DNA from: Bacillus sp. 491mf
GTDB lineage: Bacteria > Bacillota > Bacilli > Bacillales > Bacillaceae_G
Reading direction: 5' to 3'
Length of the DNA stretch: 46,437 nt
Assembly (NCBI RefSeq): GCF_900112415.1
Contig: NZ_FOLV01000031.1
Coordinates: 1 to 46,437 of the forward strand
Below are positions 32,328-46,437 of the stretch, piece by piece (position 1 is the first letter of the stretch; every line of letters begins with the position of its first letter). The notes beneath the pieces are model-generated. The model searched no databases. It was given only the letters and a program-made list of their open reading frames with translations, and had not been told where the DNA came from. Made by a program: the position numbers and the translations under genes.

Positions 32328-34937
32328 ATGAAAAGGGAAAAACGAAAAAGGCGATGGTTTCGGTATGTAATCCAACTCATCGTGATGGCATTAATTGTGT
32401 CCTCTATTCCGATGGAGGCAATCGCAGAAACGATGAACAATGGAAAAACAGTGCAGGAAAACAAGGTTCCTTCCACTAAACAAACAAAGAAAAAGAATGA
32501 GAAGAAGCAAACATCAGACGGAAAACCGACTGAAGTAGTAGAAGAACGAACTGAACACGAAAAAGTATTTGATAACAAGAATGGAACGTATACAAAGAAA
32601 GTTTACACAGAGCCCATACACACAAAAAAAGATGGGAAGCTAGAAGAAATTCAGCCAGAGCTTGTTGAAAAATCCTCACAAACAATCGCGACAAAAACTA
32701 CAAAGTTAAAACCAACATTTCAAAAAAAGTTAGAACAGAAAGAATATGCGGCCTTTGAAGTAGACGGTCACAAAGTTACGTACAAATTAATAGGGGCTAA
32801 AGGTGAAAAAGAACAAATAGGGCCCTCCCAAGTCGCAGCTACTTATGAAAAAAATAAAATTTGGTATAAAAACATTTTTCCAAACATCGATTTACGCACC
32901 ATTACATTTAATGACAAAATAAAAGAAGATATTGTTCTGAATCAGTATACAGGGCATCATATCTTTACCTTTCAATTAGAAACCACATTGACTCCGAAAC
33001 TACAAGAAGACGGTTCTATTTTGATGGTAGATGATAAGCAAAAGACAGTGTTTACATTGCCAAAACCGTTTATGACAGATTCCAATGTACATCCTGAATC
33101 AAATGAAGCACCAATTTCAGAAGAGGTAAAGTATACGTTAGAGAAACAAAAAAATAATACCTACAATGTAACCGTTACAGCTGACCCGAAATGGCTACAA
33201 GCTCCTGAACGAAAATATCCCGTTTATATTGATCCTTCCATTACGATGGGGAGTTTCCAAGAAGCATATGTATCGAGTGCGTATCCAAAGAGCAATTATT
33301 CAAGATGGGTACTTTGGGATGAAAATTTGCAAGCACATACATTGAAAGTGGGATATTTCGATAACCGCACTGGTTATAATTTTGCCTATACGAAACCGGA
33401 ACTTTCTAGTTTGAACGGCGCAATTGTACATGAGGCAAAGTTTTATGCTTACGCAGCTTGGCATTATTACGGAAATAACCCAAATGAAGTTTGGTTAGAT
33501 GAAGTAAAGGGTGACTGGGATTATATTACGATGAACTGGGAAACAAAACCGTGGTCCCAAGAAATCGCAGTTGCGAATGTTAGCCGAAATCAATGGGCAG
33601 AGTTTAATGTTACAGATACAGTGAAAGCTTGGCTGAGCGGTGAGAGACCGAACTATGGATTTAAGCTGCATCCGAATGGGCGAGGACAAACGCATTGGAA
33701 GAAATTTATTGCGGCTTATAACGGGGGAGATACAGCACCGCATTTAGAAATTACGTATTCCTATCCAAAGCCGAATAAACCGCGATTATCAGCTTATTCA
33801 AATGGCATTGGAAGCGGAACAGGACATATCAATGTGAACTGGGATGCAATGCCGGGTGCAACTGGGTACCGAGTAGGGATTTTTGACGGAACAGATTACA
33901 ATTATTATCACGTTGGGAATACGACATCTTGGTCAACAAAGGATAGAAAAATATGGCCAAGTAAAGATGATGTGAATCGTGGCCGGAATGAACTTCATTT
34001 TGATGAATTAGGAGGAGAATTTTCAACGAGTCCTTCTCAGTTTTATCAAAATAATAGTTCAAAAGAACCAGGCAATGATAAACATGCTTATAAAATAAAA
34101 GTTGTAGCGGAGTATCCGCATGATGAATTGAGTCCGGAATCAGATGAAGAAAAGGTATTTGTGCCACTAGAAGCACCGAAACAGCCGAAATCGCATGCCT
34201 TTACGAATTTGACTGGTTCTCAATCGGGATACGTTGAATTGAACTGGGATCAAATCCCTGGTGCTACCGGTTATCGGGTTATTTTTTATAATGGAAAGAA
34301 TCACGATGTATTTGACGTTGGAAATGTAACGAAGTGGACTACGCAAGGAAAGAAAATCTATCCGACGGCAGATGAATTAAAAAATGGTCGTTACCAGTTC
34401 CATACAGATGGAAAGGGAGAAGAACTTGCGTTAAATCCTTTAAGGCTGTATGAGAATGCAGGTGATTTTAGAAGCGATAAATACTGGGTTCATATTCAAG
34501 CCTATAGTAATATTGGACATGCGGAAAGTACGTATTCTCCGGATTACGGCATTAAAATAACAGAACCAACAGACATTTTCGGCTTGAAAGATTATATTGC
34601 CTCTGTTGATGTGATTGGCGGTAAAGTAAACGCGACAAACGGAAATTTTGTTATGGATGAGTCAGACTTTACGTTGTCAGGCCGCGGTCCTGACTTGCGC
34701 ATCGACCGTGTATACAACAGTAACAGTACAGAACAAGGTGTATTAGGAAAAGGCTGGACGAGTTCTTTTGACGAAAAAGTACAGGAGCAGCCAAATGGTG
34801 ATTTACACTTTATTCATGAAGATCGTGCAGTAGACCGTTTTGAAAAAACGGGAGACAATTCCTACAAAGCGCCGTCTGGTGTATTTTTAGAAATCAAGAA
34901 AACAGACAGCGGCTATACGGTTACGGATAAAGATTAA
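32328..34937 (+). CDS. N-terminal half of the Rhs protein: signal, DNRLRE-type domain, two Fn3-like domains, DUF6531-like start
   Basis: 869 residues up to the TAA. A basic start and membrane helix (RYVIQLIVMALIVSSIPMEA) act as a signal sequence. A charged Lys/Glu/Gln linker follows, then a region with a DNRLRE-like pattern (YVSSAYPKSNYSRWVLWD to ERPNYGFKLHPNG) known from wall-associated proteins. Two related modules share NWDxxPGATGYRV and VGN-T-WxT (about residues 505-540 and 640-680) and look like fibronectin type III folds. The end (NATNGNFVMDESDFTLSGRG, then YNSNSTEQGVLGKGW) is the usual entry to the YD-repeat shell. Alone it would be a secreted fragment without toxin. Confidence 0.85.
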   Translation: MKREKRKRRWFRYVIQLIVMALIVSSIPMEAIAETMNNGKTVQENKVPSTKQTKKKNEKKQTSDGKPTEVVEERTEHEKVFDNKNGTYTKKVYTEPIHTKKDGKLEEIQPELVEKSSQTIATKTTKLKPTFQKKLEQKEYAAFEVDGHKVTYKLIGAKGEKEQIGPSQVAATYEKNKIWYKNIFPNIDLRTITFNDKIKEDIVLNQYTGHHIFTFQLETTLTPKLQEDGSILMVDDKQKTVFTLPKPFMTDSNVHPESNEAPISEEVKYTLEKQKNNTYNVTVTADPKWLQAPERKYPVYIDPSITMGSFQEAYVSSAYPKSNYSRWVLWDENLQAHTLKVGYFDNRTGYNFAYTKPELSSLNGAIVHEAKFYAYAAWHYYGNNPNEVWLDEVKGDWDYITMNWETKPWSQEIAVANVSRNQWAEFNVTDTVKAWLSGERPNYGFKLHPNGRGQTHWKKFIAAYNGGDTAPHLEITYSYPKPNKPRLSAYSNGIGSGTGHINVNWDAMPGATGYRVGIFDGTDYNYYHVGNTTSWSTKDRKIWPSKDDVNRGRNELHFDELGGEFSTSPSQFYQNNSSKEPGNDKHAYKIKVVAEYPHDELSPESDEEKVFVPLEAPKQPKSHAFTNLTGSQSGYVELNWDQIPGATGYRVIFYNGKNHDVFDVGNVTKWTTQGKKIYPTADELKNGRYQFHTDGKGEELALNPLRLYENAGDFRSDKYWVHIQAYSNIGHAESTYSPDYGIKITEPTDIFGLKDYIASVDVIGGKVNATNGNFVMDESDFTLSGRGPDLRIDRVYNSNSTEQGVLGKGWTSSFDEKVQEQPNGDLHFIHEDRAVDRFEKTGDNSYKAPSGVFLEIKKTDSGYTVTDKD

Positions 34938-37900
34938 ACGGTATCCGAATATGACAAACAAGGACGTTTAACAAAGGTAAAAGACGAACATGGCAATACG
35001 TTGACGTATCGCTATGAAAATGGCCGGGTTGTCGAAATTACAAACGCTTCGAATCGTAAAGTATCTTTACAGTATACAGACGGATTATTAACAAAGCTTG
35101 TTGGTCCTGAAAATCGTACAGTTACGTATACGTATAAAGATGGCCAACTCGTAGGTGTAACAACACCGAGAGGAAAACAATATCGATACGGCTATGAAAA
35201 TGGGACACTACGTTACACATATGATCCAAAACATACGGAACAAAAGCCGTATAAAACTACGTACACGTATGAAAATAATCGTCTAGTTGGCGTGACAGAT
35301 GCACTTGGAAAGGAAACAAAGCTTTCGTATAATCAAGAATTACGCGAAGTGACTGTTACAGATCCAAAGCAAGTGAAAGATATCCATCAATACAATCTTG
35401 CGGGGAATCCAGCAAAAACAATTGTAGATGCAGACGGATTAAAACTAACAACAACGTATGAATATGAAACGAATAACTTAACGAAAAAGACAGATCCAAA
35501 AGATCAAGGGAAACGCGTTTCTGAAAGTTATACGTATGATGGCAAAGGAAACGTAACATCTGCGACGGACGCAATTGGAACAGAGAAGTATGAATATAAT
35601 CAAAATAATGATGTAACGAAAGTAACCGATACAGAGAATAAAGCAGCATCTGTGACATATAACGGTGCCAATGCCGTTTCGGAAACAGACTATCAAGCGA
35701 AAACTTCATCTGTGACGCAGTATGATTCTTATGGAAATCCGATTCGCGGCAGTTTAGAACTAGCACCAGGTGGCAACTTAATGCGCAACCCTGGCTTTGA
35801 AGTGGGTGGTGACCGTTGGGAATTGCGCGGATGGAATGATGGCGGGAAAAATGAAATTGATCGTAACGTTCGTGCACCACAGTTAGGACAAACGTCTTCC
35901 TTACACATGGATACAAAAGGCATCAATGACAGCTGGGGGGCGACGATTGCCAGCCAAAAAGTAGATGTTGAGCCAAATAAACCATATATTTTAAGCGGAT
36001 GGATCAAAACAAGTGGTTTAGAAAAAGCAAGTGCTTATTTCTATGTCATTCAGCTAGATGAGCATGGAAATCATGTAGGAACCATTTCGAATAACTATAG
36101 TAAAGTTAGCGGTACAACCGACTGGACAAAACGACAAGTCCCAATTGTTACTTCTGATAAAACGCGTCAATTAATCATTGAGGTCTTTACAGCCCATGAA
36201 AGCGCGGAAGGAAAAGGAACAGCTTGGTTTGATAATTTCCAATTAGAAGAAGGGCCAATTTCATCTTCTTTTAACCCAGTACCAAATCCAAGTTTTGAGT
36301 ATTATGGTGACAAATTAGAAGGTTGGCATACATGGCAAAACGTACCGAAAGATAATATTGGAGACGGATTTGGCGGACACTCAGCACTTGCGATGGAACG
36401 GAAGAGTCAGGCTGATCCAAGTCCAGACTTACATTATCGTCAAGAACTTGCGCTAAATCAAAGTCAGGCAAAAGACATTACAATTACGGCAATGTCAAAA
36501 GCAGAAAATGTTAAACATAGTGATACGTCGCAGCCAAACAAAGGATATTCTGTTTGGGTCTATGCAGAACATGAAGGCGGAACATGGAAAAGCTATTACA
36601 TTACGTTCCCACTTGGTACGAAAGATTGGAACCGCGGAGCAGTTGTTATCCCAGCTTCAGCAGGGGCGATTAAACGCATTCAGCTTCATACGATGCTTGA
36701 TAAAGAACTAACAGGAAAAGTATGGTTCGATGATATTCGAATCATGGAAGGCAATCACTTAACAAAGACAGAGTATGATGCAGATGGAAACTTTATTACC
36801 GCAACTTATGATGAAGAAAACCGTAAAAATACATTTACGTATGATGCGTATGGAAATAAAACAAGTGAAACAGATGAAAAAGAAAATAAAAAGGCCTTTG
36901 CCTATAACGAAGACAATCAATTAACGAAAACAACAATGGCAAATGGTACTTCTGTTTCTTATAGTTATGATGACAATGGAAACACAACAGAGAAATTTGT
37001 AACAGCTGGCGGAAAAACGCAAAAGAATATCTTCGAGTATGATGTCGATAACAAACTAACTGTCTTCCAAGATGCATTATCGCGAAAAATTTCACACGAG
37101 TATGATGCAAATGCGAACCGAACGAAGACAATGATGCCAACAAACGCTGTATTAGAATGGGAGTACGACGCGGCAAACCGAGCAATTAAAGCAAAACGAA
37201 ACGGAAAAGACGCATTCTCCTATGCATATGATGAGAACGGAAACGAAACAAAAGTAACCGATCATATAAACGGAATCACACGTGAAAAAGCATATGACGA
37301 AGGCAATCGCATCATCAGCATGACAGACCGCGGCGGCAGCGTAAAATGGTCGTATCAACCAAAATCTCATAAACTAAAAGATACAACGATCAATCATGGT
37401 TCCTACAACAACACAACAAACTATGAATATAACGCCTTAAATCAAAATACGAAAGTAACCGATAACGGAAAAACATTCTATTTTGATTACGACGAATTTG
37501 GAAACGTCGTTCGTTATCAAGCCGGCAATGACACAGCGGCCCAATTTACGTATGACCATACAAAGAAACTTACAAACTTACAAATTGGTACAAAAGATTC
37601 ACAGCGTATTTTAGAAGAATCCTATACGTATGACGCAACAAGCAACCGCACCGCAATCGAACGAAAAAACGGTGACAAAACTGAAAAAACAACGTACGCA
37701 TATGATTCTATCAATCAACTAATAAAAGAAACATTACCAAATGGTACAAGTAAAGAATACAGCTATGACGGCTTTGGCAACCGCACGAACGTAAAAGTAA
37801 CCGAAGCAGGAAAAGCAGCTGTATCGACAGCCGCCGTATTTAACGACGGTAATCAGCTAACGAAATTCGGCAATGAATCATTAACGTATGACGCCAACGG

Positions 37901-38879
37901 AAACCGTACATCCGATGGAAAATACAAATATACATGGAACGAAGCAGACCAACTTGTAGCCATTACGAAACAAGGTGAAAGCACACCATTGGCGACATAT
38001 AAATACGATGACGACGGACGCCGCATTGAAAAAACAGTGAGTGGAAAAACAACACGTTATCACTACGACGGCGACAGCATCAATCCATTATATGAAACAG
38101 ATGGAGACGGAAACGTCCTTCGTCAATATGTCTACTCAGTAGATGGCATCCGCCTTGCGATGAAATCCCAAGGCCAAACAGCATACTACCACTACAACCC
38201 ACGCGGTGACGTCATCGCGATGACAGACGAAGATGGACAAGTGGTAGCGAACTATGAATACGATGCATGGGGCAATGTTTTAAAGAGTGACGCAAAAGGG
38301 ATTGCGGCAGAAAATCCATTTGGCTATGCGGGATATATGTATGATAAAGAGATAGGGATGTATTATCTGATAGCACGATATTACAATCCAACTCATGGCG
38401 TGTTCTTGTCAGTGGATCCGGATCCGGGTGATGAGGATGATCCGATTACGCAGAATGGGTATACGTATGGAAATAATAATCCGGTGATGATGGTGGATCC
38501 GGATGGACATTGGGCTTGGTTTATTCCGGTAGCAATAGTAGGTGCTAGAGTAGCTGGTAAAGTAGCAGTTCGCTATGGAGCGAAATATGCTAAAAAAGGA
38601 GCTAAATGGGTAGCAAGTAAAGCGAAATCTGCTTGGAAAAATAGAAAATATACTATTCAAGGACCAAGTAAAAGAAATGGACGAATATTTGCAATCGTAA
38701 ATCGACAGAAAAAGCAGACTAAATCTACTGATTCTAGGTGGTTTGCACTAGATTATCATGAAATTAGAGAAAATAAGAAAAGGACTACGACAAAGGTTCT
38801 CCATATTCACTGGCGATACAAAAAAAATAAGCATTATTTTATCTATCCGACAAGGAAAAAAGTTAAATGGGTCAAATAG
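34938..38879 (+). CDS. C-terminal half of the Rhs protein: YD repeats, two carbohydrate-binding-like modules, core, variable toxin tip
   Basis: About 1,313 codons after the TAA (an internal TTG start is possible at 35001). Many YD repeats of the form YxYDxxGNxT build the beta cocoon. Within them lie two jelly-roll-like modules (NLMRNPGFEVGGDRWELRGW ... WFDNFQLEEG and VPNPSFEYYGDKLEGWHTW ... VWFDDIRIMEG). The conserved core ends GMYYLIARYYNPTHGVFLSV ... NNNPVMMVDPDG, the point where Rhs tips change between strains. The final 123 residues (38508-38876) are unrelated to the shell: a hydrophobic/glycine stretch, a Lys/Arg-rich linker, and a motif DYHEIRE ... LHIHWRYKKNKHYFIYP. The DNA becomes AT-richer there. 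I do not recognise the toxin. Confidence 0.85.
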   Translation, partial: TVSEYDKQGRLTKVKDEHGNTLTYRYENGRVVEITNASNRKVSLQYTDGLLTKLVGPENRTVTYTYKDGQLVGVTTPRGKQYRYGYENGTLRYTYDPKHTEQKPYKTTYTYENNRLVGVTDALGKETKLSYNQELREVTVTDPKQVKDIHQYNLAGNPAKTIVDADGLKLTTTYEYETNNLTKKTDPKDQGKRVSESYTYDGKGNVTSATDAIGTEKYEYNQNNDVTKVTDTENKAASVTYNGANAVSETDYQAKTSSVTQYDSYGNPIRGSLELAPGGNLMRNPGFEVGGDRWELRGWNDGGKNEIDRNVRAPQLGQTSSLHMDTKGINDSWGATIASQKVDVEPNKPYILSGWIKTSGLEKASAYFYVIQLDEHGNHVGTISNNYSKVSGTTDWTKRQVPIVTSDKTRQLIIEVFTAHESAEGKGTAWFDNFQLEEGPISSSFNPVPNPSFEYYGDKLEGWHTWQNVPKDNIGDGFGGHSALAMERKSQADPSPDLHYRQELALNQSQAKDITITAMSKAENVKHSDTSQPNKGYSVWVYAEHEGGTWKSYYITFPLGTKDWNRGAVVIPASAGAIKRIQLHTMLDKELTGKVWFDDIRIMEGNHLTKTEYDADGNFITATYDEENRKNTFTYDAYGNKTSETDEKENKKAFAYNEDNQLTKTTMANGTSVSYSYDDNGNTTEKFVTAGGKTQKNIFEYDVDNKLTVFQDALSRKISHEYDANANRTKTMMPTNAVLEWEYDAANRAIKAKRNGKDAFSYAYDENGNETKVTDHINGITREKAYDEGNRIISMTDRGGSVKWSYQPKSHKLKDTTINHGSYNNTTNYEYNALNQNTKVTDNGKTFYFDYDEFGNVVRYQAGNDTAAQFTYDHTKKLTNLQIGTKDSQRILEESYTYDATSNRTAIERKNGDKTEKTTYAYDSINQLIKETLPNGTSKEYSYDGFGNRTNVKVTEAGKAAVSTAAVFNDGNQLTKFGNESLTYDANGNRTSDGKYKYTWNEADQLVAITKQGESTPLATYKYDDDGRRIEKTVSGKTTRYHYDGDSINPLYETDGDGNVLRQYVYSVDGIRLAMKSQGQTAYYHYNPRGDVIAMTDEDGQVVANYEYDAWGNVLKSDAKGIAAENPFGYAGYMYDKEIGMYYLIARYYNPTHGVFLSVDPDPGDEDDPITQNGYTYGNNNPVMMVDPDGHWAWFIPVAIVGARVAGKVAVRYGAKYAKKGAKWVASKAKSAWKNRKYTIQGPSKRNGRIFAIVNRQKKQTKSTDSRWFALDYHEIRENKKRTTTKVLHIHWRYKKNKHYFIYPTRKKVKWVK

Positions 38880-38902
38880 TTTAAAAAAGGAGAAGATAAA
38901 TA

Positions 38903-39451
38903 TTGAGGCTTATATTTGATCAACGTAAAGAGATTGGTAATGAAGAAATTTATCGTGTAAGTAATTTTAATTGTATATATGAAGCAGATTTATTTGAGGA
39001 CGATTCTCTAAATATTGAAAGTTTAAATGATGTATTTAAAAACACTCTAAAGAAATTTATTTTTCATTTAGATGAATCTGAACGAGAAAATTTTCAAAAA
39101 GAGATGCAAACAGAAAGTATCGGTTATAAAGTATTTAATTTTGGCAGAAAAAATATATTTATAGTCATTGATTCAATATCTATAGAAAAAGTACCTTATA
39201 TAATTAATCTTTTCTATAATATAAGTATAGAGAATACAGTGGCTATTATATGTTTAGGGGAAGAAATTACGTTTGAGTTTGAAAAGATAAAAGGGAATAA
39301 GATTACAGAATATTTATTTGGTGAATGTTGGATTCCAAAATGTACTTTAGCACCATTATCAGCATGTGCCTTTATTAGGTATGATGGAGCATTGTTAACT
39401 ATTGTAAGTAATGATTTTTTGATTGGTGAACAAAGTGATTGTATGTTCTGA
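38903..39451 (+). CDS. Candidate immunity protein for the Rhs toxin tip
   Basis: A 182-residue soluble protein of mixed acidic and basic character with alternating hydrophobic strands (KNIFIVIDSISIEKVPYIIN, TVAIICLGEEITFEF). It begins 24 nt after the toxin gene, with TTG 10 nt after AAAGGAG, and is as AT-rich as the toxin tip. Position directly after an Rhs tip is where the cognate immunity gene normally lies. I do not recognise a family (SUKH, SMI1, Imm types not evident by eye). Function is inferred from position only. Confidence 0.65.
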   Translation: MRLIFDQRKEIGNEEIYRVSNFNCIYEADLFEDDSLNIESLNDVFKNTLKKFIFHLDESERENFQKEMQTESIGYKVFNFGRKNIFIVIDSISIEKVPYIINLFYNISIENTVAIICLGEEITFEFEKIKGNKITEYLFGECWIPKCTLAPLSACAFIRYDGALLTIVSNDFLIGEQSDCMF

Positions 39452-39638
39452 AGTTCTAAGAAGGTTTAAATGTAAAAATAAAAGTTTTATTATAGTGAAA
39501 TTGTGAACTAGTAGCTGGATATAAAGGGTATAAAAACTACGGTAAAAGTACTAAAAAATCGAGAAAACGAAATCGGTGAATATAATGTTAAAATATGTAT
39601 CAGAGATAAATGTTAATTTTTTTGAGGGAATGATTTCT
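39452..39638 (+). other. AT-rich gap with nothing clear
   Basis: Between the candidate immunity gene and a broken membrane gene I see no ribosome site with a credible frame, no terminator and no repeat. A 42-codon frame (39585-39713) only overlaps the start of the next remnant. Confidence 0.3.
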
Positions 39639-39891
39639 ATGAGTTTAAGATACCCAATAAGAGTAATTTTATTATGTGTAGCTCTAGGAGTTGTTTTTTC
39701 TTGTGTAAAATAAAGGTTTTTAATATCTGCTAGTTTAATTTCAATATTACTTGTATTTCTCGTTATTGGAACGTCCACTAACTTGTTGACATTTTTTAGA
39801 AGACATTCCGATTATGTTGCAATATGTTGTTGTATTAATCTATACAATATTATTTTGTATTGTATATGACTATGAGTCGTCTCTTGATTAA
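39639..39891 (+). pseudogene. Frameshifted small membrane protein (possible old immunity gene)
   Basis: Starts MSLRYPIRVILLCVALGVVF after GAGGG, hits a stop at 39711, and continues in another frame with FLISASLISILLVFLVIGTS then LLTFFRRHSDYVA, and in a third frame with VVLIYTILFCIVYDYESSLD. Two frame changes join one protein of about 84 residues with three membrane helices. Small membrane proteins are common immunity proteins of Rhs systems, so an old cognate of the orphan Rhs tail downstream is possible. A further short frame (39941-40045, 34 codons) of unknown value lies after it. Confidence 0.55.
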
Positions 39892-40034
39892 ATAAAGGAA
39901 GATAGGATTTATGATGAAAGGTGCTTTTGTGTAACAGGAGTTGAATCAATATTTCGGAAATAAAATGTTGATAAGTCTGTTATTAAAAAATATTGTAGTA
40001 AATGATGAATTGTTGAATCTGAAGAATGAAATAA

Positions 40035-40077
40035 AAAACAATTAGGGAGATTTAAATATCCTGATTGTTTTTTATTT
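40035..40077 (+). terminator. Terminator after the decayed cassette genes
   Basis: AAAACAATTAGG (40035-40046) pairs with CCTGATTGTTTT (40060-40071) with one mismatch, followed by TTATTTT. Confidence 0.7.
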
Positions 40078-40188
40078 TGAATGGCATTAATTTATTATAC
40101 GAACCCCGATGGTAAGGAGGAAAATTTTTCGATAATAGAGTACACTACAAAATAACATTTGTTTTGTGACGAAAGTAGAAGATTAAAT

Positions 40189-40377
40189 CTATATTACCAC
40201 TACAATCCACGCGGTGACGTCATCGCGATGACAGATGAAAACGGACAAGTCGTAGCGAACTATGAAGACGATACATAGGATAATGTTTTAAAGAGTGACG
40301 CAAAAGGAATCGCCGCAGAGAATCCATTTGGCTATGCGGGATATATGTTAGATTCTCTATATTGGAAGAGTAAGTAG
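40189..40377 (+). pseudogene. Orphan Rhs core fragment
   Basis: Sixty-two codons beginning LYYHYNPRGDVIAMTDENGQ and passing AKGIAAENPFGYAGYM. Nucleotides 40195-40345 match the Rhs core at 38187-38337 at roughly 90 percent by eye (about 14 differences in 153). It is broken by TAG at 40276-40278 and diverges just after the GYAGYM point, before the tip. This is the typical trace of tip exchange in Rhs/Wap loci, where an older core-plus-tip is pushed downstream. No toxin sequence remains after it. Confidence 0.85.
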
Positions 40378-46022: not shown

Positions 46023-46066
46023 TCAATAAAAAGCGGATTCCTTTAAAGGAATCCGCTTTTTATTGA
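46023..46066. terminator. 44-bp perfect palindrome, bidirectional terminator
   Basis: Arms of 22 nt (46023-46044 and 46045-46066) are exact inverse complements, with the core GCGGATTCCTTT / AAAGGAATCCGC and A/T tracts at both ends. It overlaps the stop codon of the leftward gene (46060-46062). There is no unpaired spacer at the centre (TTTAAA). Confidence 0.9.
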
Positions 46067-46437
46067 TTGATTAAAATAAACTGAAGTGTGATTATAACAC
46101 CAGCTGGTGGTGCCTCATCAGCCAATAGTGTAAGCATCCCCGTCTGTACGACATAAGAATTTTGCGACTGAATAACGCCATTAATAAATAAATTCATATA
46201 GGATACTTGACTTGGTGCTAAAATCTGCGTCATTCCGAATTGAGGCAAACCGTCGGCATTTGTGTATACAAGACTCGTGCCATCTGAAACAGCAAAATAC
46301 ATTAGATTTGTGGCAGGAATTAGTCCTTGGAAGGTCGGTCCAGTAGCGCCAGTTGATCCAGTAGCGCCAGTCGGTCCGGTAGCGCCAGTTGATCCAGTAG
46401 CGCCAGTCGGTCCGGTAGCGCCAGTTGATCCAGTAGC
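46060..46437 (-). CDS. Collagen-like protein with C-terminal DUF4183 domain (partial, BclA-like organisation)
   Basis: The right edge cuts off the N-terminus. The 125 visible codons start in a Gly-X-Y tract of the form [12 protein letters not shown], then switch at FQGLIPATN to a beta-rich domain of about 90 residues ending [20 protein letters not shown]. That domain matches the pattern of the facing 94-residue DUF4183 gene ([11 protein letters not shown] vs YYNLYVSGQLQ). Collagen-like stalk plus globular head is the layout of exosporium hair proteins such as BclA, though the head here is DUF4183 and not the BclA C1q-like fold. An internal ATG at 46302 is not a start. Confidence 0.85.
46342..46437 (-). 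repeat. Collagen-like 18/36-bp tandem repeats
   Basis: Units encode GATGST and GATGPT in alternation, giving an 18-bp unit and a 36-bp super-unit on the minus strand, and continue off the right edge. Copy number in such stalks usually varies between strains. These are coding repeats, not CRISPR. Confidence 0.9.

Follow-up and report, generated by a model that had tools for sequence, protein, structure and literature searches.

A candidate exchangeable toxin–immunity module at the end of an Rhs trunk in Bacillus sp. 491mf, and its probable distant relation to YpjP

Forward-strand positions 1-46,437 of contig NZ_FOLV01000031.1 from Bacillus sp. 491mf (GCF_900112415.1), hereafter the window (that is, the whole stretch of DNA that was analysed, 46,437 nucleotides), carry a WapA/Rhs-type trunk that ends in the motif MMVDPDG (38487-38507) and passes directly into a 123-residue C-terminal tip (38508-38876; stop codon TAG at 38877-38879), behind which lies a candidate immunity gene of 182 codons (38903-39451). 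We are highly confident that tip and gene form a real toxin–immunity pair, so far without a family name, on a known kind of carrier. The best explanation of the data as a whole, to which we give a probability of roughly 55%, is an exchangeable toxin–immunity module whose tip would act as a ribonuclease (RNase). An earlier sequence-only reading of this DNA had correctly placed the core end, the 123-residue tip and the downstream gene, apart from the gap before the gene, which is 23 rather than 24 nucleotides; its description of the tip as basic and richer in A+T is borne out by a net charge of +30 (isoelectric point (pI) 11.1) and a G+C content (GC) of 0.352, as against 0.406 in the second open reading frame (ORF) of the trunk. 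The 182-residue protein is acidic (net charge -12, pI 4.6). Single-sequence searches with the tip and the 182-residue protein found nothing significant in Pfam, NCBIfam, PADLOC, PHROGs or PDB (the weak rows Chordopox_A30L at 0.12, Phage_RB18_ORF43 at 0.0093, germ_prot_CspBA at 0.039 and phrog_3826 at 0.0063 were rejected as chance), and PDB profile searches returned weak rows only (best E value 0.2).

Recurrence of the pair and exchange of the tip

A search of genome contigs for exact peptide patterns taken from the tip, an approach that detects close relatives only, found two, in Ectobacillus panaciterrae DSM 19096 (L001) and Rummeliibacillus sp. POC4 (L002). Each lies at the end of an Rhs ORF, and the gene for a relative of the 182-residue protein comes 29 (L001) or 33 (L002) nucleotides further on; the downstream gene thus accompanies the tip as is characteristic of Rhs/WapA polymorphic toxins. 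Over whole alignments, identity to the window is 65% (L001) and 70% (L002) for the tip and 44% (L001) and 45% (L002) for the immunity protein. When the last 450 trunk residues were aligned locally with those of the window, identity was 72% for L001 and 35% for L002, whereas the L002 tip reached 74%; the tip must therefore have moved between unlike trunks. Between the window and L002, the non-synonymous (dN) and synonymous (dS) divergences are 0.134 and 1.51 for the tip core and 0.423 and 0.987 for the immunity gene (dS is saturated for the window versus L001). As read from these sequences, the tip core is under purifying selection, the putative toxin being strongly constrained and its partner more weakly so.

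The reverse, different tips behind one kind of trunk, was also found. The trunk end occurs at 27 places in 7 of 19 Ectobacillus-family genomes; 23 of these loci were processed by script and gave 13 readable tips, two of which (L070 and L083, on one contig) are identical. Of the 13, L065, which is the L001 tip itself, was the only one to give a match to the tip family; the runner-up had an E value of 0.25. Variation behind the conserved junction, a mark of Rhs/WapA polymorphic toxins, is thus seen both among the sister trunks and in L002. Behind the immunity gene of the window lies a relic of the Rhs core (40191-40348) that is 90.5% identical to 38183-38340. Such a remnant is what the displacement of an earlier trunk end would leave, and the relic is probably a trace of one. 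Orphan Rhs tips are a known subject (PMC3967940, PMC3150448). The proposal of the sequence-only reading that a toxin tip is here followed by its immunity gene gains from the recurrence of the pair in Ectobacillus and Rummeliibacillus, from the exchange of the tip between unrelated trunks and from the presence of other tips on the same trunk.

A separate observation concerns another unnamed Rhs tip (L071, 337-846), which differs from that of the window, sits on a closely related trunk and has an Asp...His-x-His pattern that looks alike; with an hhalign E value of 0.37 and no Pfam match, it was excluded from the family.

A wider tip family on two kinds of secreted trunk

More distant relatives were sought with hidden Markov models (HMMs). 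A three-row HMM of the tip gave rows at E ≤ 0.01 in 6 of 397 Bacillales genomes, five of which we judged real: L001, L004, L005 (3.4e-12), L006 and L007. Of these, L004 is a relic with two stops, whose score is real (7.1e-20) and for which no trunk was seen. The same model found only L001 in 19 Ectobacillus-family genomes, and L002 plus one chance row in 261 Rummeliibacillus-family genomes. A six-row HMM gave rows at E ≤ 0.01 in 16 of 398 Bacilli genomes, 13 of which were judged real on inspection of the locus; these 13 include L013 (identical in sequence to L012), L011 (L001 once more) and five broken or partial copies (L016, which is the same relic as L004, L018, L020, L021 and L022). Five tip rows (L008, L010, L024, L025 and L026) were left out of the counts as chance. 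Four further loci came from a scan of viral contigs with one tip alignment, and scans of these contigs with three other tip alignments gave no match; tblastn of annotated records found the tip in neither plasmids nor phages and the immunity gene not in plasmids, the only set searched for it.

The tip domain terminates Rhs trunks in L001, L002, L006 and L015, stands behind a mere core end in L012 and L017, and terminates short export-signal proteins in L005, L007, L014, L019, L023, L047 and L048 (the hydrophobic peak of the signal was measured in L005, L007, L019 and L047 and judged by eye in the others). Five residues are invariant in all 15 aligned rows: F79, D82, H99, H101 and H109. The His/Asp/Glu cluster pointed out in the sequence-only reading therefore survives in its Asp and His members, but the family as a whole does not keep its Glu. 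An HMM built from 12 relatives, with the window, L001 and L002 excluded, scored these three at 53.9, 49.6 and 42.8 bits, respectively, as against 10.7 bits for the best of 6000 shuffles, which do not correct for the recruitment of the 12 rows by searches that started from these same three sequences. One tip family, in short, moves between Rhs trunks and short secreted trunks.

At three loci (L005 2142-3080, L019 2107-3099 and L050 1586-2254), a subtilisin-like gene, which we take by motif to encode a subtilisin-type protease, lies directly upstream of the gene for the short secreted toxin, and it might process that toxin. In L050 (2317-5298), the short secreted toxin gene is in two separate open pieces, and downstream of its DUF3986-like partner lies a reverse-transcriptase-like ORF, presumably of the group II intron type.

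Immunity proteins

The candidate immunity gene of the window has a TTG start, preceded by 10 nucleotides by a probable ribosome-binding site (AAGGAG, 38887-38892, from direct reading of the sequence). A profile of its protein with those of L001, L002 and L056 aligned with a profile of the partners of distant tips (those of L006, L012, L015 and L017, together with L057 and L059) at a probability of 94% and an E value of 1.2e-7, and both profiles terminate in a YDG...ND-like segment. In another branch of the tip family (L019, L021, L023 and L052), the partner is a DUF3986 protein (PF13143). The 182-residue protein is like DUF3986 in serving one branch of the same toxin family as partner gene, but is without detectable relation to it (no Pfam match; hhalign E value of 0.067). 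Compared with the immunity profile, the partner proteins of L005, L014 and L007 reached E values of 0.034, 0.5 and 0.5, respectively, and were not counted as related. On this sequence evidence, the tip family uses several immunity types, of which the 182-residue protein belongs to one and DUF3986 represents another.

An HMM of the immunity protein gave rows at E ≤ 0.01 in 10 of 397 Bacillales genomes, four of which were judged real (G001, G020, G376 and G027); two rows (L058 and L062) were judged chance on inspection, and L060, L061, L063 and L064 (E values of 0.0018-0.008) were left out of the counts as chance without inspection. Only in G001 did the three-row HMM also find the tip. As this model misses tips of the L015 kind, and the G376 and G027 proteins are of the kind that partners L015, the result for these two genomes means only that no adjacent tip lies within about 3.3 kb. 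In G020 (L056, 1456-2418), a YxiG domain (PF24711) precedes a window-type immunity domain in one fused protein, beside which lies DUF2716, and the three-row HMM found no tip of the window family in that genome. We take YxiG to be linked to the wapA region; judged by its neighbours, this is an immunity-array setting. The sequence-only reading had named wide occurrence of the immunity gene without the tip as a point that would speak against the pair; in this partial test, the gene was indeed seen with no tip beside it, though only in a small number of genomes, a pattern consistent with orphan immunity.

A basic tip, with a charge of +10 to +32, goes with an acidic partner, at -3 to -17, in all 13 pairs compared, among which those of L047 and L048 nearly duplicate each other. 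None of 16 partners, the starts of some of which are uncertain, has a 19-residue stretch above 1.53 on the Kyte-Doolittle scale, as compared with 1.73-2.41 in seven of seven exported controls. As they have no membrane-like segment, the partners are probably cytosolic, and the target of the tip is probably cytosolic likewise. The toxin–immunity reading is further upheld by the finding that the domain also ends short secreted proteins, where its partner genes are different ones, by the constant basic/acidic pairing and by the orphan immunity copies. With it, the polymorphic toxins of Gram-positive bacteria gain a toxin family that has no name as yet and is served by several immunity families.

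A link to YpjP through bridge proteins

The window tip gives no match to the YpjP family (PF14005) at E ≤ 10 and does not reach the Pfam cut-off. Four bridge proteins connect the two: L023, found by the tip HMM (7.5e-4 in its genome), and L052, L053 and L054, found from L023. Three of them exceed the 27-bit PF14005 cut-off (L023, 3e-11; L054, 4.7e-14; L053, 5.2e-8). The tip HMM scores L023, L052, L053 and L054 at 47.5, 45.8, 17.3 and 15.0 bits (best of 8000 shuffles, 10.4), and a YpjP HMM scores them at 41.7, 36.5, 24.6 and 33.9 bits (best of 8000 shuffles, 11.2). In hhalign, tips versus bridges gave an E value of 3.3e-8 and bridges versus 19 YpjP proteins 1.6e-17, with 0.067 and 0.79 for the pairs meant as controls; direct profile comparison of tips with YpjP was not significant (E values of 0.0092 and 0.15). 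A separate YpjP HMM test clearly raised L023 (39.7 bits; best shuffle, 7.9) and marginally L020 (9.3) and L050 (8.2), and did not raise the remaining tips above shuffles; nor did the tip HMM, with or without L023, place YpjP proteins above the best shuffle. By way of these bridges, the sequence profiles indicate that the tip is very probably a distant homologue of YpjP. The earlier view that the tip falls in no named family accordingly stands for single sequences and gives way at the level of profiles.

The residues shared across this link are the same histidines that are invariant among the tips. In a joint alignment, all 17 rows keep the three histidines, in the form of His-x-His and a further His behind it. 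All 13 toxin-type rows have the Asp, whereas the four YpjP rows have His at this position, as does every one of the 19 sequences in the separate YpjP alignment; where YpjP has an invariant RFHVR motif, the tip has FALDYH, with Asp for His. YpjP further differs in being a stand-alone core protein: it is present in 46 of 61 Bacillales genomes drawn (including that of L001), has an N-terminal hydrophobic segment (peak of 1.73 in L030) and is probably an exported core protein of Bacillales. Three of its loci were viewed (L028, L030 and L032), and in two of these (L028 and L030) the gene nearby is presumably a thymidylate synthase.

To our knowledge, no function of YpjP has been established, toxic or otherwise. 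We tentatively raise the possibility, to which we would not give even odds, that YpjP belongs to one superfamily with the tip family, as a domesticated or ancestral version of an interbacterial toxin domain in which the conserved Asp has changed to His. If so, the task of YpjP might be the binding or cutting of nucleic acids outside the cell, or guarding against incoming tips of the same family. Taken together, the findings offer a first hypothesis on the function of YpjP and of DUF3986. Full-text literature searches found YpjP in no title or abstract (earlier mention elsewhere is possible) and did not find DUF3986; YpjP with toxin led only to Yersinia-plasmid subject matter, and the titles among the matches listed for PF14005 concern other subjects, mostly Plasmodium. 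Several papers that name YpjP are, judged by title, on Sec secretion or signal peptides.

Predicted structure and activity of the tip

The tip divides into a variable N-terminal part (38508-38630; GC 0.423), in which a long helix is predicted at residues 5-44, and a conserved toxin core of 82 codons (38631-38876; GC 0.317), in which beta strands are predicted at residues 48-51, 59-65, 77-88, 91-102 and 109-112. In the model, the third strand carries D82 (codon 38751-38753), the fourth carries H99 and H101 (codons within 38802-38810), and the fifth opens with H109 (codon 38832-38834). The model has a mean predicted local distance difference test score (pLDDT) of 67 and a predicted template modelling score of 0.44, with block means of 61-80 over residues 41-110 and of 55 or less thereafter. 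At this mean pLDDT, the predicted order of elements fits the BECR RNase fold as described in PMC3482391 (a helical segment, then a four-stranded meander, sometimes with a fifth strand). A structural search listed no BECR protein and returned rows that fit the long helix or have a root-mean-square deviation above 6 Å, which is uninformative either way; as the comparison gave no useful match, the fold of the tip is not established.

Because this order of elements fits BECR, because Bacillus subtilis delivers the tRNase WapA and thereby inhibits B. megaterium (PMC5566331) and because a BECR tRNase with three histidines has been solved from another Bacillus polymorphic toxin (PMC12700104), we lean slightly towards a small RNase as the activity of the tip. 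The nuclease guess of the sequence-only reading keeps the conserved Asp and His residues and the charge in its favour, and it stays a guess from sequence. We infer toxicity of the tip, protection by its partner and a cytosolic target from sequence, and envision the following course. The Rhs shell would carry the tip, built as a helix and then a small beta sheet with Asp82, His99, His101 and His109 on it, to a neighbouring bacterium; the tip would enter the cytosol, cut RNA (tRNA being the first guess) and halt growth; and the acidic, cytosolic 182-residue protein would bind the basic tip, thereby shielding the producing cell and its kin.

Several Rhs tips are DNases, and the same module could carry a metal-dependent DNase, in which the Asp and the three His would coordinate a metal ion, with DNA held on the basic surface. 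The four invariant potential metal ligands and the strongly basic charge suit such an enzyme, but Pfam nuclease profiles gave no significant match to the tip or to the scanned relatives, and the predicted helix and beta strands are unlike HNH or restriction-type nucleases; we consider a DNase unlikely. Somewhat less likely still is a tip that acts, within the same module, on a cytosolic target other than nucleic acid (for example, a nucleotide cofactor or a protein): the invariant His-x-His, His and Asp would suit other enzyme classes and no fold match decides the matter, but the basic charge of every tip compared suggests a polyanionic substrate, unless it serves the interface with the acidic partner. 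That the tip is instead a non-toxic, YpjP-like structural or envelope domain that happens to end an Rhs protein and has nothing to do with the gene that follows would agree with the status of YpjP as a core protein, for which a partner gene was sought only by viewing the three loci, but is very improbable given the exchange of the tip between trunks, the several acidic partner families beside tips and the orphan immunity copies.

Relation to known systems

The module within which we favour an RNase tip resembles the WapA/Rhs toxins of Bacillus (PMC5566331, PMC3482391) in its exported Rhs trunk, conserved core end, exchangeable tip and adjoining immunity gene, and also in its relics and orphan immunity genes; it differs in that tip and immunity protein match no named family and in that the window trunk is interrupted. 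Relatives of the tip that end short secreted proteins resemble the SAR2788 family putative toxin (NF038340; L007, 24.6 bits; L005, 14.2 bits), but both remain below its 50-bit cut-off, and the window tip, which gives no match to NF038340, is on an Rhs trunk. A further comparison is with the YxiD-YxxD pair, in which the carrier of YxiD is, we assume, of the LXG type and thus unlike the Rhs trunk of the window. According to PMC12700104, YxiD (Ntox50, a BECR-fold tRNase of B. subtilis 6633) is a His-dependent tip of a Bacillus polymorphic toxin, to which the window tip would be alike, and the blocking of substrate access by its immunity protein offers a likeness to the window pair; the window tip, however, has no significant Pfam match to Ntox50, and the motif in YxiD is HxVP.

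The interrupted trunk and its surroundings

In the window, an in-frame TAA (34935-34937) divides the trunk, leaving two ORFs that share one frame. The first (32328-34937, forward strand) is the WapA/Rhs-type N-terminal part, with a hydrophobic export-signal segment (peak of 2.10 at residue 14) and DUF6531 (PF20148, 4.5e-17). The second is open over 35001-38879 including the tip, and its trunk portion (35001-38507, forward strand) holds the Rhs repeats (PF05593, RHS_repeat, 1.2e-65) and the Rhs core, the arrangement before the tip that is typical of Rhs/WapA polymorphic toxins. Related trunks are open over 2304-2352 residues at three places; the window copy lacks an uninterrupted trunk with export signal. 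The stop may be real or a sequence error. Delivery of the tip from the window copy is doubtful because the frame is interrupted; the immunity gene, which is open, may still be protective.

The tip, the immunity gene (GC 0.260) and the Rhs core relic are all on the forward strand. Between the latter two, the stretch 39452-40190 (GC 0.264) has as its sole listed ORF of at least 60 residues one of 75 residues on the opposite strand. At the far end of the window, the reverse strand (46060-46437) encodes collagen-like repeats and a C-terminal domain, which resemble exosporium filament proteins.
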